A stretch of 40,621 nt of DNA from a virus, in IMG/VR virus record IMGVR_UViG_3300000116_000055, positions 1-40,621 of that record; one strand, written 5' to 3'. The position numbers and the translations under genes are program-made. Below, one piece after another: positions 2,232 through 40,604 of this stretch. Below the pieces are notes generated by a model. It searched no databases. It was given only the letters and a program-made list of their open reading frames with translations, and was not told the origin of the DNA. How positions within the stretch are numbered: position 1 is the stretch's first letter; each line of letters starts with the position of its first letter.

Positions 2232-2684
2232 ATGACCCGTGACGAATTACTAAACTATCACTCAAAGATTTGCCAGTCGGCTCGTGACTTGATGAATCTA
2301 AAGAACCGAGACTATGCAGGCAGCGAGGGAACTGAACCCTTTGCTAACTTTACACGATGTGAAGCAATGGGTATCTGTGATACCGAGCAGGGATTCCTTG
2401 TTCGAATCACTGACAAAATGAGCAGATTGTCATCTTTCCTTCGTGCTGGTAAGATGTATGTTACAGATGAAAGTTTTAATGACACCGTTGTGGATGTCAT
2501 CAATTACATGGTTTTGCTTTCGGCCTATATCGCCGATAAAGATAATGAAATTTCTTATGAAGAAGAAGAAGTCGAAACCCCTGTGCGTCCTTTCCCTCCT
2601 GATATTCGTACCAAGTCTAATGGCGTTCACAGGAACACAGACCCAATTGTCACCTCAACTCTTGTCGGCGATGCGGACTGTTGA
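2232..2684 (+). CDS. DUF1599 / MazG-like nucleotide-modification-associated protein
   Basis: Matches the all-alpha NTP pyrophosphatase-like family known as DUF1599 or Nmad1: the KNRDYAGSEG segment (about 28-37), an FLVRITDKMSRLSSFL helix (about 56-71) and the ESFNDTVVDVINYMVLL helix (about 81-97), in which the acidic residues of the last two would bind the metal-nucleotide. The role in phages is unproved; family members lie near DNA-base-modification or nucleotide genes, and the dUTPase, ThyX and reductase here fit that. The last 45 residues are acidic and probably disordered, and this is the part overlapped by the next gene in another frame. The ATG at 2232 is chosen over an in-frame TTG at 2220 because GGAG lies at 2222-2225. 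Confidence 0.75.
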   Translation: MTRDELLNYHSKICQSARDLMNLKNRDYAGSEGTEPFANFTRCEAMGICDTEQGFLVRITDKMSRLSSFLRAGKMYVTDESFNDTVVDVINYMVLLSAYIADKDNEISYEEEEVETPVRPFPPDIRTKSNGVHRNTDPIVTSTLVGDADC

Positions 2685-3006
2685 GAGTGGGAATGATGAC
2701 TCTGCGGTCGGCGACAACGGAAATGCGATTGGACCTTTTCAAATTTGGAAAGTCTATTGGCAGGATGCACTAGAGCATGATCCGTCTATTGGTGGCAAGT
2801 ACAACGACTGCTTCGATCCAATCTATGCCGAGAAGGTAGTTCGTGCTTACATGTCACGGTATGCTACCAAAAATCGTTTGGGTAGAATCCCGACCGCAGA
2901 AGACATGGCTAGAATTCATAATGGTGGACCGAATGGATATAAGAAAAAATCTACGGTCGTTTATTGGAAGAAGGTAAAGAATGTCCTACGAAATTCTAAT
3001 CGGTGA
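2545..3006 (+). CDS. Exported i-type (destabilase) lysozyme-like muramidase
   Basis: Likely cleaves peptidoglycan, as endolysin or entry lysin. The N-terminus is a signal peptide: four lysines, a hydrophobic stretch (13-26) and an SLMA-F cleavage candidate. The mature part has TVESGN with a candidate catalytic Glu47, then GDNGNAIGPFQI (56-67) with candidate Asp57, YWQDA (71-75), an AYMSRYA helix, and ARIHNGGPNGY followed by a YWKKVKNVL end. This order of motifs matches invertebrate-type lysozyme/destabilase, but the usual cysteines are missing. A lytic-transglycosylase-like fold is the alternative. The first 140 bases overlap the previous gene in a different frame; the signal peptide argues that this overlap is real. 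A second ATG at 2557 keeps the signal peptide and is equally possible. The 3' end overlaps the methyltransferase by 26 bases. Confidence 0.72.
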   Translation: MKFLMKKKKSKPLCVLSLLIFVPSLMAFTGTQTQLSPQLLSAMRTVESGNDDSAVGDNGNAIGPFQIWKVYWQDALEHDPSIGGKYNDCFDPIYAEKVVRAYMSRYATKNRLGRIPTAEDMARIHNGGPNGYKKKSTVVYWKKVKNVLRNSNR

Positions 3007-11581: not shown

Positions 11582-13539
11582 TTGACAACAGGACCAAGCA
11601 TACCTCAACAAACCCCAAACAGGGTTACCATACAGAGACCAAACACTACCAGTGTAGTGATTGGTTCTTCTGTGTCTCCACAAAAAATTGTTGGTGTGCC
11701 CCCTCAAAGAACTGAGACTGTAAAGGGAACCTCCACGCCCGGTGTACAGGGTCCGCAGGGTGTTCGTGGTGAAAAAGGATTCACTGGATCGACTGGTCCA
11801 ACAGGTCCAACAGGACCGACAGGACCACAGGGTCCTACTGGTCCCACTGGTGCTGATTCAACGGTTCCGGGTCCACAAGGTCCAACAGGATCGACGGGAC
11901 CACTGGGTCCCACTGGTCCCACTGGTGCTGACTCGACCGTCCCCGGTCCACAGGGTACGACTGGTGGAACAGGTGCCACTGGTCCACAGGGTCCTACTGG
12001 TCCCACTGGTGCTGACTCGACCGTTCCTGGCCCACAAGGAACCACGGGCCCGACTGGTCCAACGGGCGCACAAGGTACGACTGGTGGGACTGGTGCTACT
12101 GGACCTCAAGGTCCTCAAGGAAACACAGGCGCACAGGGAAACACAGGCGCACAAGGTACGGCTGGTGCAGATTCAACTGTTCCCGGCCCTCAAGGAAACA
12201 CAGGTGGAACAGGTGCCACTGGTCCACAAGGACCACAGGGCACGGCTGGTTCAGATTCAACTGTTGCAGGTCCTCAAGGAAACACTGGTCCAACAGGATC
12301 ACAGGGTTCAACTGGTCCAACTGGTGCTGCTTCTACCGTTCCCGGTCCTCAAGGAAACACTGGTCCAACAGGATCACAGGGTTCAACTGGTCCAACTGGT
12401 GCTGATTCTACCGTCCCCGGTCCACAAGGAAACACAGGCGGAACAGGTGACACTGGTCCACAGGGTCCTACTGGTCCCACTGGTGCTGACTCGACCGTTC
12501 CCGGCCCTCAAGGAAACACAGGTGGAACAGGTGCCACTGGTCCTCAAGGTCCCCAAGGTCCTACAGGATCAACTGGTCCTCAAGGTACAACTGGTGGAAC
12601 AGGTGCCACTGGTCCTCAAGGTCCCCAAGGTCCTACAGGATCAACTGGTCCTCAAGGTACAACTGGTGGAACTGGTGATACTGGTGCTGCTGGCCCTCAA
12701 GGTCCTACAGGATCAACTGGTCCTCAAGGTACAACTGGTGATGGATTGTTTGACACAACGCATGAAACAGGAACAACTCTAAACCACAGTTTGAATTTTG
12801 ACAATATCAATACAGTAGTCGGTGATGGTAGAAAATTCCCAGTGTTGCTTGCCGATGGATCTATTACCTTTGATTACATTCGTGCCCAAGACATCTTCTT
12901 GGACTCTGAGTTTGTCTTCGGTATCAATTCGTTTAGCATATCTGGCAGTGCTACAGTTCTGATAGGATCTGGAAACTACAGTCTTTCTGGTAGAAGTTTA
13001 TCTGCAACATATCAAACTCCGGGAAGTATATCAGTTTCTGCTGCCTCGGTTAGAACAAATGCCTCTTCTGACTCTGGGTTCCCGGTTGACCTGTCAAGTG
13101 GGTCGGCATCAGTCGCATCAAACAACATCGCTTATCCGGCCAGTAAAAATTCTTCTATAACATTCACCCTCGGTGCAACTGGTAGTGATGCCTCTTTTGA
13201 TTCCGCGACAGATACAATCACGTTTAGAAACAACAATTATAACGGAACATCTACTAACGCTGGGTTGACTGGTGGTGCATTAGTTTCATTGACTGCATCT
13301 CTAGACAACAATAGATCATCAACCTTCTCTGTAAACGCTGGTGCTGGTGAATATATCTATTATGCCTATCCCTCATCTTTTGGGGACGCTAGTTTCACTG
13401 TGGGTGGATTTGCTGGTGGGTTTAGTAAACTTCACGGCGGAGCAACCGCACATACGAATAGTGCTGGATTTAGTGAAACATATTTCATCTACAAATCAGA
13501 CAATGCAAATCTCGGATCAACTGAAGTGGTGGTGTCATA

Positions 13540-13540
<1 letters not shown>
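11582..13540 (+). CDS. Collagen-like tail fibre protein 1
   Basis: A 652-residue fibre protein. Residues about 55-395 are an almost unbroken Gly-X-Y collagen-like repeat rich in GPTGPTG and GPQGNTG, punctuated by repeated [10 protein letters not shown] units. Residues about 400-652 are a Ser/Gly/Asn-rich beta domain ([30 protein letters not shown]) that probably forms the receptor-facing tip. The triple helix would form a long thin shaft, the Thr/Gln-rich type known in phages that lacks hydroxyproline. The start is a TTG at 11582, chosen because AGGA lies at 11571-11574 and no ATG exists before the repeats. Its TAA shares one base with the next ATG. Long open frames on other frames and on the minus strand here are artefacts of the repeat. 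Confidence 0.88.
12269..12404 (+). repeat. 75-bp-period direct repeat inside collagen-like gene 1
   Basis: A 61-base segment at 12269-12329 recurs exactly at 12344-12404. Each copy encodes [20 protein letters not shown], and the copies are linked by a (D/S)STVPG-type junction. Such near-identical DNA copies allow unequal recombination that would change shaft length. Confidence 0.85.
12541..12684 (+). repeat. 72-bp tandem repeat inside collagen-like gene 1
   Basis: Two head-to-tail 72-base units (12541-12612 and 12613-12684) are identical over the first 60 bases and differ slightly at the end. They encode [20 protein letters not shown]-type sequence in phase with the Gly-X-Y triplets. Confidence 0.85.
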
Positions 13541-15317
<1,777 letters not shown>

Positions 15318-15321
<4 letters not shown>

Positions 15322-16028
15322 GTTTCGTTAGTATAATGACAAGCGAAAGTGGGATTGTGAAGGAAGGTCTTCAAGTTTGGTTGGATTCAAATATAAAGTC
15401 ATCATTCCCGAGTGAATCATCATCTCCATATACATGGCATGACTTAACATTAAACAATAGGTACGGGACTTTAACCCCCACATCTGTAAATGATATTGGC
15501 AATGATGGAGAAGTTGGACCAATATACTTTAATGGGGATAGTGGTATAGGAGGAGTAGTAAATTATAATTTGCCTGAATTACTTGCCGAAGATAGTTTTA
15601 CATGGTCTATTGTAATTTATCTTCCAAGTGGAAATCCTGCCAATAATGTTATATTTGGTAATAGGTACTCAACGGTTTCGGTGCCGTGGCTAGAATTTTT
15701 TAAGTTTACTCCTACAAATTTTGAATGGTATTATCAAGGTGGGGCGAATATGTCGTATACCATACCAACAAATCAACTTCATCACTTGTGTGTGACAAAA
15801 AATGGGAGTTTGTTTACATATTATGATAATGGTGAAGTAGTTAATACGAGAACAACTACAAAACCTTTAACTGAAGGTCATGCAATTTATTTTGCTACTG
15901 GTAATTCCGCCCGCACCGCCGAAAATGTTAATGTAACATTTTATCAAGTTTTACTTTATGAAAGAGGTTTATCAAAAGATGAAGTACAACAAAATTTTGG
16001 TGCCATTAGGGGCAGATATGGCATATAA
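15318..16028 (+). CDS. LamG/concanavalin-like domain tail protein
   Basis: A 236-residue protein with a laminin-G/concanavalin-like beta-jelly-roll pattern: [16 protein letters not shown] and [13 protein letters not shown] near the N-terminus, [21 protein letters not shown], then [20 protein letters not shown], and the closing [20 protein letters not shown] typical of phage LamG proteins. Such domains bind glycans and occur in tail fibres. The coding DNA is visibly richer in A and T than the flanking collagen genes, which suggests separate acquisition. It overlaps the previous gene by four bases (ATGA). Confidence 0.82.
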
Positions 16029-16031
16029 ATA
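16024..16031 (+). promoter_or_regulatory. Exact TATAAATA (T4 late-promoter-like) box
   Basis: This is an exact match to the T4 late -10 element, overlapping the stop of the LamG gene. It lies only 5 bases before the ATG at 16037, so a transcript from it would be almost leaderless, and no Shine-Dalgarno sequence precedes that ATG. It may be a real late promoter for the largest fibre gene or a chance match. Confidence 0.35.
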
Positions 16032-16036
16032 CTAGC

Positions 16037-19282
<3,246 letters not shown>

Positions 19283-27248: not shown

Positions 27249-28271
27249 ATGAAGATCAACGCTATTATTGCATCTTGTGTTATCAGTGGAGTTGCTGTTG
27301 CACAAGAAACGGACATGGACGCATTTAGTCTTGTCCAACGGGATGCCGCTACGCGAGCATCACTCAATGAACCCATGCTCAGTCTCAATGTCGGTGGTTT
27401 CATTCAGACTGGTTGGGAGTATTCCAACGGTGGCGGACTTCCCGCACAGAACGGTTTCGCGGTTGACCGCGCCCGTCTTACCTTCTCAGGAGATATGAGC
27501 AATGAGAGTTTCTCTTACCTCATCAGTGGTGAATGGTCGGATGTTACGAACAGTTTCGATCTGCTTGATGCTGTCGTTACTCTTCGCATGTTCGACGAAG
27601 CAAACGTCCGAGTTGGACAGTTCGTTCCCCAGTTCTACGCTGGATACGTCACCGACCCAACTCAACTCACAACCCTCAACTACAGCGTCTCAGCCCTTAC
27701 CTTTGGTCAGGGACGAGGAGCAGGTGTCGAAGCCTTCCGATCCTTCGGTGACTTCGAAGTCAGTGCCTTCTACAACAACGGTTTCGACACCGCTGGTGCA
27801 GGAGTCGGTGATAACAACTACGCCATCGGTGTTGCTGCGATTTACCATGTGGACAGTACTGTGTCTCTTAACGGTGGTTGGGCTTATGATTCTGTCACGG
27901 AAGGTGTAAACAGTTTCACCTTTGGTGGTACTCTTACGGAAGGTCTACTCAGTCTTGACGCTGATTGGATCGTCAACGATGCAGGTGATGGCAGTCTGAA
28001 CAACTGGTCCATCGTTACTACCGCTGCTTACCAGTGCATGGATGACTTTGAAGGTTTTGCACAGTGGGAAATCGGTGACTACGACGGTAGTCTCAACCTT
28101 CTCACTGTAGGTGGTAATTACGATCTTGCTCACGGACTTGTCTGGACCAATACCTTCGGGTTTGCTCTTGAGGGTCTTGGTAGTAATTTCGTAACTGATA
28201 ACACTGGATGGCGTTCTGGTTCCTCATCGGGCCAGTTCGTTCTTCGTAGTGGTGTTACTCTTAGTTTCTGA
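27249..28271 (+). CDS. Outer-membrane beta-barrel porin (OprP/OprO-like)
   Basis: A 340-residue exported protein. Residues 1-19 are a signal peptide ending AVA-Q. The mature part has the periodic amphipathic strands of a trimeric porin: LSLNVGGFIQTGWEYSN, AVDRARLTFSGDMSN, FSYLISGEWS, then VRVGQFVPQF (typical of phosphate-selective porins) through to a final strand ending VTLSF with the terminal Phe used as the outer-membrane sorting signal. The mature N-terminus (SLVQRDAATRASL) resembles planctomycete porins as I remember them. It would insert in the host outer membrane, either improving nutrient uptake or altering phage receptor display. The codons look more C-ending than those of neighbours, hinting at transfer from a host. 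AGGAG at 27238-27242 precedes the ATG. Confidence 0.85.
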   Translation: MKINAIIASCVISGVAVAQETDMDAFSLVQRDAATRASLNEPMLSLNVGGFIQTGWEYSNGGGLPAQNGFAVDRARLTFSGDMSNESFSYLISGEWSDVTNSFDLLDAVVTLRMFDEANVRVGQFVPQFYAGYVTDPTQLTTLNYSVSALTFGQGRGAGVEAFRSFGDFEVSAFYNNGFDTAGAGVGDNNYAIGVAAIYHVDSTVSLNGGWAYDSVTEGVNSFTFGGTLTEGLLSLDADWIVNDAGDGSLNNWSIVTTAAYQCMDDFEGFAQWEIGDYDGSLNLLTVGGNYDLAHGLVWTNTFGFALEGLGSNFVTDNTGWRSGSSSGQFVLRSGVTLSF

Positions 28272-28578: not shown

Positions 28579-28608
28579 CCCCCGTGCTAAATAGTACGGG
28601 GGTTTTTT
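28579..28608 (+). terminator. Rho-independent terminator
   Basis: CCCCCGTGC (28579-28587) pairs with GTACGGGGG (28594-28602) around loop TAAATA, including one G-U pair, and is followed by TTTTTT (28603-28608). It closes the reductase-porin-membrane-protein unit. The GGGGG arm lies 8 bases upstream of the ATG at 28611. Confidence 0.92.
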
Positions 28609-28610
28609 AT

Positions 28611-29174
28611 ATGATAGTAGGAATAGATTACAGTTTGACATCTCCAGCAATTTGTGTTTTCACTGGTGGTAGGTATAGCAAATTTCAATACGAAAAGTGT
28701 AAGTTTTATTTTCTAACTGACACCAAAAAGTATGCACAAACATGGGACGATCAGATATTTGGAACTAGATTTTCTGACTATCACTGTGAGTCCCAAAGAT
28801 ACAGCACTATAGCAGACTGGGCGACTGAGCATTGTATGGGTGCATCGTGTATTGCCCTTGAGGGATATGCGTATAATGCGAAGGGTTCTTCTGCCTTTCA
28901 ACTAGCAGAGAACATGGGCATCTTTAAATATAAGTTATTCGAGTTATCTTTACCACTCGATGTGGTTGCACCAACAGAGGTCAAGAAGTTTGCCACTGGA
29001 AAGGGTAACTCAGATAAACCAGCAATGCACGTTGAGTTTATGAAAGCAACAAAGATAAACTTAAAAAATAAAATAACCCCAGATAAATCTGGGGTGACTA
29101 ATCCTGTCTCTGACATTGTTGATGCTTACTTCATTTGTCGTTGGCTTCACTCGAAGATGAATTCCGTCCGATGA
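28611..29174 (+). CDS. RuvC-like/RNase H-fold Holliday junction resolvase-like protein
   Basis: A 187-residue protein with the RNase H-fold acidic residues: Asp6 in IVGIDYSLTSPAIC, a Glu in CIALEGYAYNAKG, and an Asp in VSDIVDAYFICRW near the C-terminus. A PTEVKKFATGKGNSDK segment follows the middle strand as in RuvC-like resolvases of phages. Expected to cut branched DNA before packaging, matching T4 endonuclease VII in role but not in fold. The ATG at 28611 is chosen because upstream frame would pass through the terminator; the only SD-like sequence is the GGGGG of that terminator stem. Its last 44 bases overlap the minus-strand lipoprotein gene. Confidence 0.8.
   Translation: MIVGIDYSLTSPAICVFTGGRYSKFQYEKCKFYFLTDTKKYAQTWDDQIFGTRFSDYHCESQRYSTIADWATEHCMGASCIALEGYAYNAKGSSAFQLAENMGIFKYKLFELSLPLDVVAPTEVKKFATGKGNSDKPAMHVEFMKATKINLKNKITPDKSGVTNPVSDIVDAYFICRWLHSKMNSVR
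29061..29095 (-). terminator. Rho-independent terminator for minus-strand unit, inside RuvC-like gene
   Basis: ACCCCAGA (29076-29083) pairs with TCTGGGGT (29088-29095) around loop TAAA. Read on the minus strand, the stem is followed by TTATTTTATTTTTTAA (29076-29061), a T-rich tail. It sits 36 bases after the end of the lipoprotein gene and lies wholly within the coding sequence of the opposing RuvC-like gene. On the plus strand no T-run follows, so it acts in one direction. Confidence 0.8.
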
Positions 29175-30895: not shown

Positions 30896-31117
30896 TCAAT
30901 ACATCACATATAGAGTACCCGCGGCCACTGCTGTCACTTTGGTTGCCCCAAAGGGAACTGGAGTTCTAGCAGGAATCGTAATGCTTTTTGAGTCACCGTC
31001 ATAATCGGTAAATGTAACTGACGCCGCCGCGCTGTGATCGAGGTAGAGTGCTTTGACTCTACCGAGTCCAATGTTAAGTTCCACTGGTTTTATTTTTTGG
31101 TATGTTCTATCTGACAT
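30896..31117 (-). CDS. Small beta-rich protein, possible virion component
   Basis: A 73-residue protein with alternating strands (VKALYLDHSAAASVTFTDYD, SITIPARTPVPFGATKVTAV) ending GTLYVMY, the look of a small beta-barrel such as a decoration or tail-tube-associated protein. GGGAG lies before the ATG. Both ends overlap neighbouring genes by one to a few bases. No family recognised. Confidence 0.65.
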   Translation of the reverse strand: MSDRTYQKIKPVELNIGLGRVKALYLDHSAAASVTFTDYDGDSKSITIPARTPVPFGATKVTAVAAGTLYVMY

Positions 31118-31617
31118 CAGTTATCTCCCGCGTCTACTGCTTCACCGTCGTCACTTGGTTCAGACCCTGATGAGTCTGGGACGATGGATGCTTTTACATT
31201 GTAAAGACCACTCTCGCCGATTTGATAGTCGCACTTGATGTTAAGACCATAACCGAGTTTAGGTGTGATACCATCGTCTTCGGTGTATTCGCCCATCATG
31301 TTCATGCCCTGTCGCCCGCCGAAGAGGGTTAGTTTGTAAGTCTCTGATTCTTCTGGGATTGATCTGGTGTCAAAATTGAAGTCAAGACCTGCGGTGTTTA
31401 GTTTCGCTCTAAGTTCAGCCATCGCATACTTGGGAGTGAGGAATGACTTACTAAAGAAAGACTCTAGGAATGCGTTGAGTGCCATGATGGCGCGTGGATC
31501 TTCGATCTGGTGAACACCAATTTCGATATTGTGTGCTGATCTAGGGGACCCGCCATCAGGAGACTGTGCGCCTGAGGACTCTATGAGATCCGCTCTTAGT
31601 TCTTTAAAATTTTTCAT
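31117..31617 (-). CDS. Phage protein with capsid-targeting-like N-terminus
   Basis: A 166-residue protein. Its first residues, MKNFKELRADLIES, resemble the T4 capsid-targeting peptide (MKxY/F... ending in I/L-x-E), with a possible prohead-protease cut after LIE. The rest includes AIMALNAFLESFFSKSF and RLAKLNTAG-type helices, a beta part (YKLTLFGGRQGMNMMGEY), and an acidic tail (EPSDDGEAVDAGDN). It could be a head-internal or neck protein. The ATG at 31617 is preferred to one at 31620 because it leaves a better gap to AGGGAG. Confidence 0.65.
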   Translation of the reverse strand: MKNFKELRADLIESSGAQSPDGGSPRSAHNIEIGVHQIEDPRAIMALNAFLESFFSKSFLTPKYAMAELRAKLNTAGLDFNFDTRSIPEESETYKLTLFGGRQGMNMMGEYTEDDGITPKLGYGLNIKCDYQIGESGLYNVKASIVPDSSGSEPSDDGEAVDAGDN

Positions 31618-31883
31618 CATTCTCCCTTTGCGATTCTTTGGAATTTGGTCATGTTGATATTATTTAGTTGTACACCATGTTCCTCTGCGGCTTTATACAT
31701 CGCAGTGTTTAGGTGCTTGCCAATATCTTCTGGTGCTACGTTATCCCCAATTGATTCGCCTGCTGCTTTTGCAGCATTGATGAATGGTTCAGGTAAAGAA
31801 TCATCTTCGATGTGTTTATTTACCATACTTGAGATATCATTAATTAAATCTTTATCAAAACTGTTTGCGCCAAACGATGTCAT
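31617..31883 (-). CDS. Small unidentified helical protein
   Basis: An 88-residue helical protein (DKDLINDISSMVNKHIED, FINAAKAAGESIGDN, IGKHLNTAMYKAAEEHG) with no recognised family. AAGGAG lies 7 bases before the ATG. It is the first of seven closely packed minus-strand genes running to 29131, and its stop overlaps the next start. Confidence 0.65.
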   Translation of the reverse strand: MTSFGANSFDKDLINDISSMVNKHIEDDSLPEPFINAAKAAGESIGDNVAPEDIGKHLNTAMYKAAEEHGVQLNNINMTKFQRIAKGE

Positions 31884-31913: not shown

Positions 31914-31921
31914 TATTTATC
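31914..31921 (-). promoter_or_regulatory. T4-type late promoter candidate GATAAATA
   Basis: Read on the minus strand, this box differs from TATAAATA at one position and overlaps the stop of the giant gene; a second TAAATA lies just downstream. The start would be near 31908, ahead of AAGGAG and the ATG at 31883, so it could serve the seven small genes. Confidence 0.4.
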
Positions 31922-34900
31922 AGTCGAGATCACTGACCGTTTGACCCTTTGACCACATTCTACATGACCAATACTTTGCTTTGGTCTTTGGTCCGGGGTT
32001 GTCACATCCGTGTCTGTCTCTAAATGCTTTTCTTCTCTTCGGATCGTCTCTCTTGATCTCCATGTTGGGATCACCAAAACGAACTGTCTTCACGTTTCCA
32101 GTGGAGGGATCCTTTACCTTGACCATGAACTTCTTTGCTCCACCAGATGTGCGGGTTGGATTGTTCAGTTTTGGTTGTGCTTCTTCACCAACCCAATCCG
32201 ACTTCGCATTTAGCATCTTCGAGAACTTCTTTCTTGCGGAAGCAGTCCTGAAGTATAGAATCTGATCCTTGCCTCTGGTTTCTCTGTCACTGACAAGTTT
32301 GGACATGTCCTTCTTTGTCTTGTCAGAGAATCCCATGATCTTCTTCATCTTTGCTTTCATTGCAGGTGTATTTGGTAACACCAGTGAGATGTTGGTAGTT
32401 TTCTTTTCTAGTGGCTTGAGGTTTCTGGTCTTCATGACCTTTCTGTCTGCCATTGTCGCCTCACGGGTGAACCCCTTTTTGTAGTCTCTGTCGAGAGACG
32501 CTGCCATCGCAGCACTTCTTTTATCATCTTTTTTCTTTTGCTTTACAGACATGGCCGACTGACTATCTGTCTTCGTTCTTCCTGCTTGGGCCTTTGCTCC
32601 CTTGTAGGCGTCCTTTGGACTTTCGCGGTTCTTTCTCTGTCGGTAGTAGTATGCCATTGTACCAATCTTGGCTTCCATTCTACTGCGGTAGTCTTTACCG
32701 ACAATCCTACGCATGGCGATATCAGTCTTCGCATTTGCCACACCCTTTTGTCTCTTTCGTAACTTACGCATCTCACCCTTGTCTGCTTTCATGTGACTTG
32801 GTTTGTCTGTCATTCGAATGACACGCTGGGTGTTATCCTTCTGTGCCTTGCTGATGTATGATCTTAAGGTTTTTACCTTGAGTTCATCAACCTGTTCGAC
32901 ATCTTCCTTGAAGACTCTCTTCATGCGAGGACCCTCGTCTGTGCGTAGTAGTTTACCACCAAACTTCTTCATGAGCTTTGCCATCTGTTGATGTGCCCGT
33001 GTTGGACTACCAACACCTGCTTGGTTTGGTCCCTCTGTCCTGACTTTGCCGTCTTTGGTTCCAGTCGAAGATCCAAGTCTGTTGCGAGAGACTTGCTGCA
33101 TGAATGACTTGGCATTTTCTTCGGATGGGAATTCGAACTCAAACGCTTCTCGGGTATACTTCTTTCTAATCGCTTTCTTTCTACCCTTAACGCGGTTTCT
33201 CAACTCACGTTCTAACTCTGCTCTGTGTTTGGCAGAAACTGGACCTTGCTTTCCCTTTGCTTTCAGGACGTTCCCGATACCTTCGATGTCACCCTGTGCC
33301 TTATCCGCATAGGATCCGAGAGTATCTCGTTTGAGTTCATCAACCTGTTTGACATCTTCTCTCTTGAGTTTTGGCTCTAGGTTGTTCTTGCGGGCATCAA
33401 GACGAGAGAGTGCTGCAACCACGCCCTTTGCTTTCTTGTTAGTCTTTGGGGAGTGTTTGCCAGTGTTGAGATCACTCTGGACTTGTCCTCTTCTCTTGTA
33501 AACATACTTACGAAGGGTGTCTGATGAAATCTCATCAATCTGCGAGGACTCCAGAAGACCACGATTCTTCGCCATCTTCATTGCACCTGCTGCTGATGGG
33601 TGTGATCCGTGGAAAGAGAACAACTTGAGACTGCCGGGGCGTGACGGATTGCTTGTGATTGCCATGACAAATTGGTCTTGATCTTTCCTGCCAGCGGCGG
33701 CCGGATTCTGTAGAACTGTGAACACACTTTTGCCACCGAGGGAACTTGGTGCTGACTTCACAACCTTCATCTTACCACTTTCGATTGCTTTCTTCATCTC
33801 TGGTGATGGGGGGACAGCAGTATCGCGTACTGCTTCGGTTGTGTATTCGAACGATTCTTTTCTCCAACTTCCACCCTTACTCTTGTAGTTCTTCGATGCC
33901 CATGCGTTTGCATATGCAGAAGGATATACATCAAACTTTGCTTTCGCTGCTGACTTTGATGCTGCCCACTTAGCGGGATCAGTTGGTACGTTTTTCTCTT
34001 CGAGAGATTTTTTGAATTGATCGAATGACTTCATGGAATGCTCTTTCTTTATTCTGTTCGATACGTTTATTGGTTTGTTTCCTGTGCCGGGGCGATCCTG
34101 ATTGGGGTCTGCTGCCTTTTTACGCTTTGCTGCATTCCCAATCGCTTTCTTGCCACCTTGCGCTCTTAGTTTTCTTGCTTTCTCTGGGGAGAGACACTTT
34201 GGTTTGCCTTCGCCCGGTTTGGAGTCGCCACATTTACCGACTCGTTCGCCCTTGGTGTTGTAACGGTCCCACCCCGCCTCACCGCCTGCGGATTGACCGA
34301 ACCATTTACCCAGACCGGAGTCTTTATATACCTTTTCGTTCACGGTTTCTCCCGGCGTGTCTTTTTTATACTTCTTTAGTAGTTTTTTGGTTCCCTCATC
34401 ACCTGCACCGTGTTCCTCTTTTCGAGTATACTTCTTTGAGTTGTTATCTCTCGAACGGTTTGCTGATTTCGAAACCACGCGAGTGTTCCCACTGGAGTTG
34501 TCTCGGGCGTTTCCATTTACATGGTGTACGTCCTTGCCATCACCCTTAGAAACTCGCCCAGCGGACTCTGCGTCCCTTCTGGCCTGCACCCGTGATGCTC
34601 TGTCTGCACGGTACTCTGGTTTGCTGTGATACTTGTCGTACTCGGCAGCGTAATCTCTTGCCTCGGCCTTGGGACCGACTGCGGATTGTTGACGAGCTCG
34701 CTCTTTCTTGACAATGGTGGGATACATCTTCTTTGCGACCATCTCTATTCTGTTCTTTTTGATCTTAGAGATGCGATCGTCTATTCGGATTCTTTCACTG
34801 AACCCAAGTTCATAGTAGTTCTTACCCTTGAGCAATCGCTTGCGGAACGCCCTCTTCGCTGCACGATAAGACATCTTCCTCAACTGGTCAGGTGTCTTCT

Positions 34901-35591
34901 TTCGCTTACGCATGATCTCTTTCTTTCGACGGATGCGAGGTGCGAGTCTCTTGAACATGATCGAACGCTGTCTTTTTTGTGCAGCGGTCATCACTTCATC
35001 AATTTGCTCTACCTCTTCCTTGAGCCCCGCCTTCTTGCGTAGTGTCTTAAATAAAGCGTCTGCTACATCTTTCGTTGTGGCAGACGGCATTGCTTTTCTA
35101 AATTTCGCTTTGTGGTTCTTCTTAACCATCTCTCGAACTTTAGTTCCTGAGATACCAGTTACACCTTCGGCGTCTGGATCTCTTCTACCTGCACTTACAA
35201 CAGTAAACTTATCAAATTTATACTTGCTTGGTATGTACTTGGCAATACCTTTTTTCAGTTCCCCTACACGACTACCACCAAGAACTAGGTACACTTCTTT
35301 GTATCCTTCGTCGCTTAGTTTTTGCATCATGTCAAATGGATTGCGAACGTCTTTGTCTTTCGCTACCTTGAGTCCGGGGATCTGCTTTCTCATAAACCGA
35401 ACCTTCTCTGCGTGTGTCAGTGGGTTACTCGCATCTCCCTTGGTGAAGGTTGTGTAGATACGATAGTCACCGCCCACTTTCTTGGCGGTGTCTCTGACTT
35501 TGTTCATGAGAAGTTCGTGACCACCAGTCATCGGTTGGAACCGACCAATGGTCACGACTATTGGTTTAGATTTTCTTGCCTCGTTTATCAA
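31920..35591 (-). CDS. Giant modular polyprotein-like virion protein with nucleotidyltransferase-like N-terminus
   Basis: A 1223-residue, Lys/Arg-rich mosaic. Residues 1-170 are a cytidylyltransferase-like domain (GRFQPMTGGH near 16-25, with Thr in place of the first His of HxGH, and ISGTKVR at about 147-153). Then follow a basic linker, an HNH-like HHVNGNARDNSSGN motif (about 355-368), a DSGLGKWF...CGDSKPGEGKPKC zinc-like module, an internal MKSFDQFKKSLEE peptide, a YPSAYANAWASKNYKSKGG module, four Q(I/V)DE units (near 197, 689, 746, 899), and a C-terminal EIKRDDPKRRKAFRDRHGCD module known from marine phages. The Q(I/V)DE units resemble T4 prohead protease sites. The start is TTG at 35591, overlapping the previous stop (TTGA); no strong ribosome binding site is seen. 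Confidence 0.85.
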   Translation of the reverse strand: MINEARKSKPIVVTIGRFQPMTGGHELLMNKVRDTAKKVGGDYRIYTTFTKGDASNPLTHAEKVRFMRKQIPGLKVAKDKDVRNPFDMMQKLSDEGYKEVYLVLGGSRVGELKKGIAKYIPSKYKFDKFTVVSAGRRDPDAEGVTGISGTKVREMVKKNHKAKFRKAMPSATTKDVADALFKTLRKKAGLKEEVEQIDEVMTAAQKRQRSIMFKRLAPRIRRKKEIMRKRKKTPDQLRKMSYRAAKRAFRKRLLKGKNYYELGFSERIRIDDRISKIKKNRIEMVAKKMYPTIVKKERARQQSAVGPKAEARDYAAEYDKYHSKPEYRADRASRVQARRDAESAGRVSKGDGKDVHHVNGNARDNSSGNTRVVSKSANRSRDNNSKKYTRKEEHGAGDEGTKKLLKKYKKDTPGETVNEKVYKDSGLGKWFGQSAGGEAGWDRYNTKGERVGKCGDSKPGEGKPKCLSPEKARKLRAQGGKKAIGNAAKRKKAADPNQDRPGTGNKPINVSNRIKKEHSMKSFDQFKKSLEEKNVPTDPAKWAASKSAAKAKFDVYPSAYANAWASKNYKSKGGSWRKESFEYTTEAVRDTAVPPSPEMKKAIESGKMKVVKSAPSSLGGKSVFTVLQNPAAAGRKDQDQFVMAITSNPSRPGSLKLFSFHGSHPSAAGAMKMAKNRGLLESSQIDEISSDTLRKYVYKRRGQVQSDLNTGKHSPKTNKKAKGVVAALSRLDARKNNLEPKLKREDVKQVDELKRDTLGSYADKAQGDIEGIGNVLKAKGKQGPVSAKHRAELERELRNRVKGRKKAIRKKYTREAFEFEFPSEENAKSFMQQVSRNRLGSSTGTKDGKVRTEGPNQAGVGSPTRAHQQMAKLMKKFGGKLLRTDEGPRMKRVFKEDVEQVDELKVKTLRSYISKAQKDNTQRVIRMTDKPSHMKADKGEMRKLRKRQKGVANAKTDIAMRRIVGKDYRSRMEAKIGTMAYYYRQRKNRESPKDAYKGAKAQAGRTKTDSQSAMSVKQKKKDDKRSAAMAASLDRDYKKGFTREATMADRKVMKTRNLKPLEKKTTNISLVLPNTPAMKAKMKKIMGFSDKTKKDMSKLVSDRETRGKDQILYFRTASARKKFSKMLNAKSDWVGEEAQPKLNNPTRTSGGAKKFMVKVKDPSTGNVKTVRFGDPNMEIKRDDPKRRKAFRDRHGCDNPGPKTKAKYWSCRMWSKGQTVSDLD

Positions 35592-35776
35592 TCTGCTAGA
35601 ACTTTCTTAAGCACTGGTTTTGTCTTTACGACTTTCTTTTCGGCCTTGACAGGAGCAATCCATTTCCATCCTCTTGTACATCGGATGAATTCACCACCAT
35701 CAGCGGCGATCTTCTTTGCTCTGTTTGATACTTGTCTAGCGTCGTCGTTGAAACGTACCCATTCTCTGCTTGCCAT
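35588..35776 (-). CDS. Small unidentified basic protein
   Basis: A 62-residue protein with many Lys residues at its C-terminus (KAEKKVVKTKPVLKKVL) and two Trp near GWKWIAP. AAAGGAG lies upstream of the ATG. It links the ligase-like gene and the giant gene in one chain, overlapping the latter by four bases. A DNA-binding or head-internal role is suggested only by its charge and position. Confidence 0.6.
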   Translation of the reverse strand: MASREWVRFNDDARQVSNRAKKIAADGGEFIRCTRGWKWIAPVKAEKKVVKTKPVLKKVLAD

Positions 35777-36994: not shown

Positions 36995-37002
36995 TATTTA
37001 TG
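36995..37002 (-). promoter_or_regulatory. Late-promoter-like box CATAAATA
   Basis: One base from TATAAATA on the minus strand, in the gap between the exonuclease and ligase-like genes. The expected start near 36989 falls at the GGAGG site (36989-36985), leaving almost no leader, so it is a weak candidate for separate late expression of the ligase-like gene. Confidence 0.3.
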
Positions 37003-38409: not shown

Positions 38410-38700
38410 TTATTTTTTATCTTTACCGTCTTTGGTCTTGTGGGACTTGTACCCTTTATTCTTCATGTACCATGCTAATGCCCAAGGGTTATCAATATCT
38501 TTGTGCTTTTTCATTGCCTTAACTGTTCCCTCGAATCCCGGTGGTGATTTCTCATTCACTTTCTTTTTTTTCTTCTCATGGGGGACAACTCTGTCATCCA
38601 TTGCATCATCAGAGTTTTCCCAGTCGAGAGCAGCGTCGTTTCTCTCACGACGCTTTCTCTCTGCTTCAGTCTCTTCTCGGAATTCCCAGAAAGATTTCAT
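38410..38700 (-). CDS. Small phage protein with capsid-targeting-like N-terminus
   Basis: A 96-residue basic protein. The start, MKSFWEFREETEAE, resembles head-targeting peptides (MK-x-F...), although no clear I/L-x-E cut is seen. The C-terminal half (PPGFEGTVKAMKKHKDIDNPW then ALAWYMKNKGYKSH) is a module found repeatedly in marine T4-like phages as I recall it. The ATG at 38700 shares one base with the upstream stop and has AAGGGTGGG upstream. Likely a packaged or core protein; the exact role is unknown. Confidence 0.7.
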   Translation of the reverse strand: MKSFWEFREETEAERKRRERNDAALDWENSDDAMDDRVVPHEKKKKKVNEKSPPGFEGTVKAMKKHKDIDNPWALAWYMKNKGYKSHKTKDGKDKK

Positions 38701-40604
38701 CAATACCCACCCTTTTCACGACTTTGATATCGCTGCATTGCCTTTTCGCCCTTTTTGAATGACGAGTCGGCCGTCTTTGAGTCACCTCTGTCAACTGCTT
38801 TGAGTGAGTCATCACCGTGCTTTGTGAACTTGTTGAATGCTCTTTCCGCACCCTTTCTTTTAGCAGCCTTGATCTTAGGATTGTTTGGGTTTTTTGGCAT
38901 CTTGAGTTCATCAACCTGATCGACCTCTTCATACTTGCTACGAATACCGTCTTCACGTTCCCGTGCAATCTGATTGGCACGGGCTTCTTGTTCCCTCTTG
39001 ACCTTAGCATAATACGCCTTCATGGAAGGGGTGTTCTGTGCTGCCTTCATTCCAGTCTTGTGAGCGATCCCCGGTCCCATGGCCTCACCAATCTCTTCGC
39101 CTTCTTCGTGATCGTGGTTCTCATGAACCTCTCCCAGATGGATGTGTAGGTCGTCCGTAGGCACGCCCTGCTCGATTCCATGCTCGAACATGACATCATA
39201 CCATTCGATGTCACCGAACTCGTCAGGAGTCGCGTGTTGTGAGTGAACGGGGTTTCCGTGACCGAACTGGGCATGTTCGACATGAGTGGCACAATAGTGA
39301 GTACCCTTTGGATACTTCTTGCCATGCAGTTTGGTGATTCTCTTCTTCTTCTCTTCGCTCATGAGTTTCTTGTGGTTCTTGATGGCGTATGCGTCTGCTT
39401 CCTTCTTGTTGTCGAATGATGCAGCTACGTTACCGTCTTTTGTCATTACTTCGAACTTGCCATCCTTTTCCTTGACATGATCGGTTGGATCCATTTCCTC
39501 CAACTTCAGTTTAAGGTCACGCATTCTTCTGATCTTGGTGTTACCGGGTTTTCCACCCTTGTCTGACTGATATGACTTTACACTCTTTGCGACATCCTTC
39601 TCTCCTGCACGAAGTCTTACCTTATTAACAGTAGAGCGAGTTGGCTTGAGTCTGCGGTCTGCGTCACGCTCCTGTGCCGGAGTCATGTCTTCGATGGCCT
39701 CTCTGCGACTGAGACGTTCCTTCTCTCGACGGTCTGCCTCGATATCACCTGCACTCTTCTTGAGTGGACGGCCTGGGTTGTGTACGTCTCTTGGTGTGTC
39801 CTGCCGCATCTTACCCAGCATCTTAGCGGCCTTCTTCGCTGTATCTGACATTCCCTCAGCAACGTCATGCTCAACATGATCCTTTGTGAGTCGAGGGTTT
39901 GATAAATTGCGAGAATCGTATGGTTTGGTTCCCTTTTTGCGAGCAGTCTTGATAAGTCTACCCATGTCTCTTGCTTTGATTGGGATTTTCGCACCGTCTT
40001 TGTAGGTGTCGGAACCCTTATAAGTGACCTTGACTTCACCACCTGCTCCACGATCTCGCTTACCCTTACCAGTGACAGTTCCTGTCGAGTCCCCAGCAGA
40101 GTCATACTTGATTGCTTCTTCGACCTCAGACTCTTCTTTCTTCAGACCCTTAATCATCTTTGCGTTGCTCTTGACATCCACGCTGCCAAGGTTCTGTGTC
40201 TGTGTACCTGTCTTGGACTTCACATGAAGTTGTCCATCTTTCTCATAGAACTTGCGACCAAACTTCTTGTCTGATCCGATGTAGTTCATTTCTGAAAGAC
40301 TGACTGGTTCACTGTATTCTTCCCACTCTTCACGAACAACCTTACCGTTCTTCTCTACGGTGACGTTGAGACCTTTGTGTTGTGCCTTAGCAAACTTGAT
40401 TGCGTCGTCGATTTCCTTGGGGTTAACCTTCATCGACTCGACGACTTTGTTTCCCTTGCGTACAAACAGTGTATATGTCTCAGAAAGATCAACATTGGCA
40501 CCAAATTGGTGCTTGTTGATGGAAACGTCATCACCGAGACCGGCCTGTGCATTGATATTCTGCTGGGCCGCTAGTGATGCTAGGAATTGTTGGTGGTTGT
40601 TCAT
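38700..40604 (-). CDS. Large modular virion-type protein with metal-binding His module
   Basis: A 634-residue charged mosaic. The first 100 residues are a small beta module (VDLSETYTLFVRKGNKVVE, then an IDDAIKFAKAQ helix). A long basic, low-complexity middle follows. At about 425-500 is a THYCATHVEHAQFGHGNP...WYDVMFEHGIEQ...HIHLGEVHENHDH module, with many His residues that could bind metal, of a kind seen in other marine phages. After a MKAYYAKVKREQEARANQI helix comes EEVDQVDELKMPKN (near 555-570), the same Q-V-D-E unit that marks the giant minus-strand protein, then a basic C-terminus. AAAGGA lies 9 bases before the ATG at 40604. Likely a head core or internal protein. Confidence 0.8.
   Translation of the reverse strand: MNNHQQFLASLAAQQNINAQAGLGDDVSINKHQFGANVDLSETYTLFVRKGNKVVESMKVNPKEIDDAIKFAKAQHKGLNVTVEKNGKVVREEWEEYSEPVSLSEMNYIGSDKKFGRKFYEKDGQLHVKSKTGTQTQNLGSVDVKSNAKMIKGLKKEESEVEEAIKYDSAGDSTGTVTGKGKRDRGAGGEVKVTYKGSDTYKDGAKIPIKARDMGRLIKTARKKGTKPYDSRNLSNPRLTKDHVEHDVAEGMSDTAKKAAKMLGKMRQDTPRDVHNPGRPLKKSAGDIEADRREKERLSRREAIEDMTPAQERDADRRLKPTRSTVNKVRLRAGEKDVAKSVKSYQSDKGGKPGNTKIRRMRDLKLKLEEMDPTDHVKEKDGKFEVMTKDGNVAASFDNKKEADAYAIKNHKKLMSEEKKKRITKLHGKKYPKGTHYCATHVEHAQFGHGNPVHSQHATPDEFGDIEWYDVMFEHGIEQGVPTDDLHIHLGEVHENHDHEEGEEIGEAMGPGIAHKTGMKAAQNTPSMKAYYAKVKREQEARANQIAREREDGIRSKYEEVDQVDELKMPKNPNNPKIKAAKRKGAERAFNKFTKHGDDSLKAVDRGDSKTADSSFKKGEKAMQRYQSREKGGY

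Follow-up and report, generated by a model that had tools for sequence, protein, structure and literature searches.

The window studied here, IMG/VR record IMGVR_UViG_3300000116_000055 at its full length of 40,621 bp, is a virus fragment that contains T4-like replication and nucleotide genes as well as collagen-like tail-fibre genes, and for which megablast against phages returned no close phage relative. On its minus strand an open reading frame (ORF), running from 35591 to 31920 and starting with TTG, encodes in 1223 codons the protein designated P0001. An earlier note on this DNA had described a giant modular protein of 1223 residues; the ORF proved real, and the modules comprise a nucleotidyltransferase, an HNH-like domain, a two-Cys module and a conserved C-terminus. 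With a computed net charge of +158 and an isoelectric point (pI) of 10.3, P0001 is basic in the manner of T4-type internal head proteins, and it appears that a T4-like virus infecting aquatic bacteria has here joined several small cargo proteins, DNA-binding or enzyme-like, in a single chain, with capsid-protease sites between them. The protein and its parts, from N- to C-terminus, are the following.

31920–35591, minus strand: candidate head-cargo polyprotein P0001, 1223 amino acids (aa), modular and basic (ORF and translation)
35016–35579, minus strand: module 1, HIGH-type cytidylyl/nucleotidyltransferase, residues 5–192 (phrog_3041, phrog_395; virion homologue in phage S-SM1: T4-GC190)
34995–35006, minus strand: QIDE junction 1, residues 196–199, candidate gp21 site (motif count)
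34335–34994, minus strand: module 2, basic helical stretch plus HNH_3-like domain, residues 200–419, HNH at 351–378 (PF13392)
34035–34334, minus strand: module 3, GKWFG/two-Cys, residues 420–519 (homologous genes with their own capsid-targeting sequence, CTS, in contigs L056, L072 and L083)
33996–34034, minus strand: internal capsid-targeting-like peptide MKSFDQFKKSLEE, residues 520–532, ending in an LEE site (matches the N-termini of stand-alone genes)
33852–33995, minus strand: module 4, KNVPTDPAKW..YPSAYANAW domain, residues 533–580 (predicted folded by AlphaFold)
33549–33830, minus strand: module 5, VFTVL.. domain, residues 588–681 (BLAST homology to an L039 ORF)
33531–33542, minus strand: QIDE junction 2, residues 684–687 (motif; in one model, in a segment with a predicted local distance difference test score, pLDDT, <50)
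33336–33347, minus strand: QVDE junction 3, residues 749–752 (motif; pLDDT <50)
32883–32894, minus strand: QVDE junction 4, residues 900–903 (motif; pLDDT <50)
32664–32882, minus strand: module LKVKTLRSYISKAQKDN..KPSHMKADKGEM, residues 904–976 (in other orders in relatives)
31953–32171, minus strand: C-terminal module FMVKVKDPSTGNVK..YWSCRMW, residues 1141–1213 (a separate gene in Pelagibacter phage HTVC008M)

Module 1 matches phrog_395 (E 3e-41, residues 5–196) and phrog_3041 (E 3e-45, residues 5–297) over its full length and carries the GRFQPxTxGH motif, which places it among these cytidyltransferases; a phmmer search of PDB with this module gave no match. The HNH-like domain scores 20.8 bits against PF13392, slightly below the cut-off of 24.8, and its close homologues exceed this cut-off at 26.0 and 26.3 bits, while the basic stretch that precedes it resembles a separate HTVC008M gene, AGE60476 (MRTYRAF...VVEA). 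The two-Cys module carries 'GKCGDSKPGEGKPKC', and the conserved C-terminus has a weak match to DUF5754. The motifs DNPWALAWYMKNKGYKSHK and YPSAYANAWASKNYKSK, of the window gene at 38410–38700 (minus strand) and of module 4 (residues 533–580), are similar, and the two may belong to one domain family.

Comparison of module order among related phages, a check that the earlier note had named, showed that the modules are shuffled, split or separate genes in T4-like relatives. On IMG/VR contigs the P0001 modules are arranged differently or stand as genes of their own, and in HTVC008M module 1, the basic module and the C-terminal module are each encoded separately. The PPGFEGTVKAM module has its own gene in the window (38410–38700) and is fused to a nucleotidyltransferase-HNH protein in contig G007; the LKMPKNPN module ends the 634-aa protein of the window and, in L003, a different protein. 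Fused cassettes are also carried by an isolated phage, cyanophage S-BM3, in which SBM3_00185 has YIEE ahead of KNVPT. Two larger MAFFT alignments put fragments in wrong places and were excluded.

In the T4 CTS, residues 4 and 7 serve targeting and residues 8 and 10 processing (PMC9026906), and among the T4 internal protein sequences compared IPIII starts with MKTYQEFIAE-A. The earlier note had observed that an internal peptide of P0001 resembles a head-targeting signal, and the relatives bear this out. In L056, L072 and L083 the GKWFG and KNVPT modules are adjoining separate genes, each with a CTS-like start of its own (MKSFKRYLEE... and MKSFKQFVEEIQNLEE-KNVPT..., respectively), with an overlap of 4 nt between the two in L072 and L083; the fused form, in which the second CTS is retained internally, is that of the window, L004, L005, L035 and L089. 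The internal MKSFDQFKKSLEE of P0001 is the former N-terminus of a fused gene, because a matching peptide begins stand-alone genes such as that of L056 (MKSFKQFVEEIQNLEE-KNVPT). Signals of this kind are concentrated in the family, a strict CTS being found in 62 of 342 module-related ORFs versus 17 of 741 other ORFs on the same contigs (Fisher 5e-19; some loci overlap, so that these counts are not fully independent). An N-terminal CTS is present in the adjacent DUF6267 gene, whose start MISFDQFITE-S comes very close to the targeting signal of T4 IPIII, and in the module-1 homologues of S-SM1, Syn9 and L009.

The junctions between the modules have a pattern of their own. Repeated Q(I/V)DE units had been reported in the earlier note, and four are present (residues 196–199, 684–687, 749–752 and 900–903) versus 0.01 expected, a number that none of 2000 shuffles reached. 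At the positions thought to be processed, [IL]xE occurs as IDE at 197–199 and 685–687 and as LEE at 530–532, with VDE at the other two junctions. As also noted earlier, a 17-nt string is common to P0001 and the 634-aa gene: TTGAGTTCATCAACCTG occurs twice in the former and once in the latter. Its interpretation as a conserved recombination or DNA element was ruled out, a degenerate form being found in only 35 IMG/VR stretches. Before the KNVPT module, in 52 distinct upstream contexts, P1 is Glu in 50 and P3 is L or I in 41, F in nine and A in two, whereas P2 and P4 are unconstrained; ahead of the LxxxTLxxY module, 21 of 27 contexts have I, V or L at P3, and most have DE. A single module is preceded by differing [ILVM]xE tripeptides across proteins, and the enrichment of [ILV]xE at module boundaries defined by BLAST reaches z 11–12, compared with z 0.5–2.3 for [ILV]xD and none for [ILV]xK. 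Variants of the KNVPT-type module with a KNC start (L042, L068, L074, L086 and L088) have F at P3 (LFLE-KNC), which breaks the [ILV]xE rule.

The sites at which gp23 of related phages is inferred to mature include ISE-A, LTE-A, LGE-I, LHE-A, ITE-Q, VSE-A and VTE-A, with V at P3 in G024 and G048. The P0001 junctions look like gp21 sites of this kind, with a hydrophobic P3, Glu at P1 and a free P2. The earlier note had taken QIDE to fit I/L-x-E and QVDE to be a near form; V at P3 plausibly suits this group of gp21 proteases, and QVDE is acceptable as a site because V at P3 recurs at the inferred gp23 sites. Covariation of the P3 residue in cargo with that in gp23 was also considered and dropped, since G014, a contig with F-type junctions, has LDE-A in gp23. 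A gene for the protease gp21 was found in each of the four near-complete relatives and in 21 of 44 module-bearing contigs; no gp21 gene lies within the 40.6-kb window fragment.

Taken together, P0001 is probably a fused set of T4-type internal head (cargo) proteins that is processed by a gp21-type protease. Starting from the observed modularity, shuffling, former N-terminal signals, junction pattern, charge and protease in relatives, we infer packaging, cleavage, ejection and function of P0001 along the following lines. Ancestral genes, each with a T4-type CTS or an [ILV]xE processing site, would have fused into a single ORF, and the resulting chain would be pulled into the prohead core. There a gp21-type prohead protease would cut after [ILV]-x-E at the junctions, namely at the Q(I/V)DE sites, at LEE (residue 532) and at others, to leave about eight small, strongly basic products that would include the nucleotidyltransferase and the HNH-like domain. 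Basic predicted products alternate with acidic linkers: cutting at the listed sites is predicted to give products of 65–233 aa, each with a net charge of +9 to +42, the main ones with pI 10.0–10.6, and to excise short acidic peptides. The products would remain in the head with the DNA and presumably be ejected together with it.

Several observations weigh against this reading. The generic [IL]xE motif is not enriched in P0001 (6 versus 5.0 expected in a shuffle test), on which grounds we dropped its overall density as support for processing. F stands at P3 in nine of the 52 KNVPT contexts, and neither the BLAST boundaries nor the junction contexts nor the CTS counts are independent in phylogenetic terms. 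AlphaFold models of residues 395–690 and 680–980 are of low confidence (pLDDT 64 and 50), with the KNVPT domain as their only confident part, and have no fold match in PDB. Even so, in these models the KNVPT block (pLDDT about 91) starts at the LEE site, LEE-532 borders the only domain confidently predicted to fold, and the Q(I/V)DE sites within residues 680–980 fall in segments with pLDDT <50. The reverse motif Ex[ILV] is likewise enriched at module boundaries (z 8), and therefore linker acidity may supply part of the [ILV]xE boundary signal. This last point also speaks for P0001 being a head-packaged multidomain protein that is left uncut, its acidic, E-rich linkers just joining domains, and that is ejected whole like the so-called polyvalent proteins, which hold 2–15 disparate domains and are believed either to be injected uncut or to be processed by peptidases of their own (PMC5512222). 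The linkers of P0001 are indeed acidic and, from the low pLDDT, probably flexible. However, a plain acidic linker has no need for the fixed P1 Glu and hydrophobic P3 that the junctions retain amid variation at P2, P4 and further upstream; gp21 is encoded by related phages, whose inferred gp23 sites follow the same pattern; and Pfam searches up to E=1 matched no zincin-like MPTase or other peptidase domain and no ADP-ribosyltransferase (ART), primase or methylase-helicase domain in P0001, which combines several disparate domains, as polyvalent proteins do, and lacks their signature domains. We regard the uncut protein as unlikely.

P0001 itself has no N-terminal CTS (M..[FY]..F[IL]xE): it begins with LINEARKSK (LINE-A), and its signal is only internal, at residues 520–532. 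Because the N-terminal signal is absent, strict membership of P0001 in the T4 internal proteins is not claimed; a frameshift from the preceding 62-aa gene into P0001 was considered as a way to provide the signal, and no evidence for it was found. The gene neighbourhood of P0001, furthermore, is one of replication and nucleotide metabolism. Both features would suit an enzyme or DNA-binding protein of several domains that acts in the cytoplasm, outside the virion, and whose CTS and QIDE likenesses are remnants or coincidence, an explanation that we consider very improbable in view of the virion data and the concentration of CTS-bearing starts in the P0001 gene family. Sullivan et al. 2010 detected both T4-GC190 and gp21 by mass spectrometry among the proteins of purified S-SM1 virions (PMC3037559), and in our strict CTS scan of this Synechococcus phage the one annotated gene matched was SSM1_190, which is T4-GC190 (MKKFSAFLNE-A), the module-1 homologue; the sole other match is a spurious short ORF within a tail-fibre gene. 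In Syn9, the counterpart of the gene cluster includes the annotated head proteins gp188 and gp190. Direct experimental support comes from the S-SM1 detection alone, which bears on the presence of the homologue, not on cutting. The suggestion of the earlier note that P0001 is a head cargo polyprotein is supported, as regards packaging, by the former N-terminal CTS, the concentration of CTS in the family and the S-SM1 virion homologue; cleavage we infer.

A 189-aa protein of G007, L023 (G007:61792–62361, minus strand), is encoded between gp20 and gp21 and carries an EEVEVDE-A linker as in the modular proteins, which ties this linker to the prohead core. Among the 110 ORFs of G007 (128 kb) the linker motif or a strict CTS is found in four, namely two modular proteins, DUF6267 and L023. 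P0001 might, then, be a sacrificial core protein that shapes the prohead core and whose gp21 fragments exit the head, as with T4 gp22, gp67 and gp68, rather than cargo; T4 core proteins are cleaved to many pieces (PMC9026906), and the linker of L023 is the same. This we judge quite unlikely, given that the module-1 homologue stays in mature S-SM1 virions, that enzyme-type modules (nucleotidyltransferase, HNH) are poor candidates for scaffolds, and that the predicted products are basic and resemble retained internal proteins.

The following features flank P0001 or resemble it.

31117–31620, minus strand: 167-aa gene with CTS-like start MKNFKELRADLIE-S (the syntenic G007 homologue starts MKKFKELREDIHE-S)
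35588–35776, minus strand: basic 62-aa ORF, the stop TGA of which overlaps the TTG start of P0001
35778–36980, minus strand: DUF6267 protein, start MISFDQFITE-S, GGAGG ribosome site (PF19782, E 1e-111)
36995–37002, minus strand: CATAAATA, T4/S-PM2 late-promoter-like, upstream of the DUF6267 start (motif from PMC2984593)
38410–38700, minus strand: 96-aa gene with CTS-like start MKSFWEF and a VNE-KSPPGFEG junction (the module fused to the nucleotidyltransferase-HNH protein in G007)
38700–40604, minus strand: second modular protein, 634 aa, QVDE at 38907–38918 (modules common to L001, L003 and L044)

Given the TGA/TTG overlap, the 62-aa ORF and P0001 are likely to be translationally coupled. Sites like NATAAATA precede the DUF6267 and 31883 genes, but late-promoter-like matches in the window are no more numerous than expected by chance, and the motif was dropped as statistical evidence. 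Elsewhere in the window, on the plus strand, an outer-membrane porin-like protein with a likely signal peptide (27249–28271; PF07396 Porin_O_P, 30.3 bits, above cut-off) adjoins a B12-type ribonucleotide reductase gene, and a RuvC-like Holliday-junction resolvase (28584–29174) is slightly over the Pfam cut-off. A Destabilase (invertebrate-type lysozyme) domain (E 1e-16) lies at 2443–3006 (plus strand) in an ORF that overlaps 2220–2684 in another frame and whose start is probably more downstream. Several long collagen-like (GPQG/GTTG repeat) tail-fibre-type proteins occupy 11582–19282 (plus strand), with a laminin-G/lectin-like protein at 15318–16028.

As known here from sequence, P0001 would work like the T4 internal-protein system. 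It shares with IPI, IPII and IPIII, which gp21 cuts at L/I-x-E, the signal pattern (MISFDQFITE-S; MKSF..E-K), the site type, basic products and T4-type head genes in relatives, but each of these is a small, single protein whose one signal is N-terminal, whereas P0001 has several modules per chain, a signal inside the chain and numerous sites. T4 Alt, an ADP-ribosyltransferase whose two ends are both cut by gp21, is likewise a head-packaged enzyme with gp21 processing, as predicted for P0001, yet it is one enzyme with terminal propeptides and P0001 several units without an ART domain. In phiKZ and SPN3US a gp21-like protease (AxE in SPN3US) processes many head proteins with several cuts per precursor; unlike those predicted here, these cuts trim propeptides and do not free several mature units per chain, and the motif differs. 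Polyvalent proteins (Iyer et al. 2017, PMC5512222) also fuse disparate domains in one injected or packaged protein with rapid domain shuffling, and P0001 differs from them in lacking the hallmark peptidase and ART domains and in its predicted processing by the capsid protease at repeated junctions. Also close are the families of the cyanophage cytidyltransferase T4-GC190/DUF6267 cluster (phrog_395, phrog_3041, phrog_455), to which module 1 and its neighbour belong and which is virion-detected in S-SM1; there the proteins are separate or two-domain, whereas module 1 of the window is joined to a series of other modules. No description of such a polyprotein strategy in tailed-phage heads was found in the literature searched, with most subscription journals outside its coverage.

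A broader proposition, which we put forward tentatively and hold to be possible rather than probable, is that aquatic T4-type phages draw on a common pool of interchangeable, [ILV]xE-bounded head-cargo cassettes, which would be fused into polyproteins, loaded by one signal and cut into DNA-associated, ejected effectors (HNH-like nuclease, nucleotidyltransferase, basic proteins), so that reshuffled cassettes, not new genes, would drive the evolution of the cargo. T4 IPI is known to act in counter-defence and IPIII likely does so too (PMC9391042), which makes the cargo modules candidate early host-takeover or counter-defence proteins. If P0001 is indeed processed cargo, a precise list of predicted cut sites follows, and a rule (an M..[FY]..[FY][IL]xE start, or [ILV]xE-bounded modules) would become available to find ejected proteins among many unannotated genes. 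P0001 would then represent a new route by which proteins enter a virus head, and the T4 internal-protein system, so far a matter of a few proteins in coliphages, would take in aquatic T4-like phages and a polyprotein strategy.

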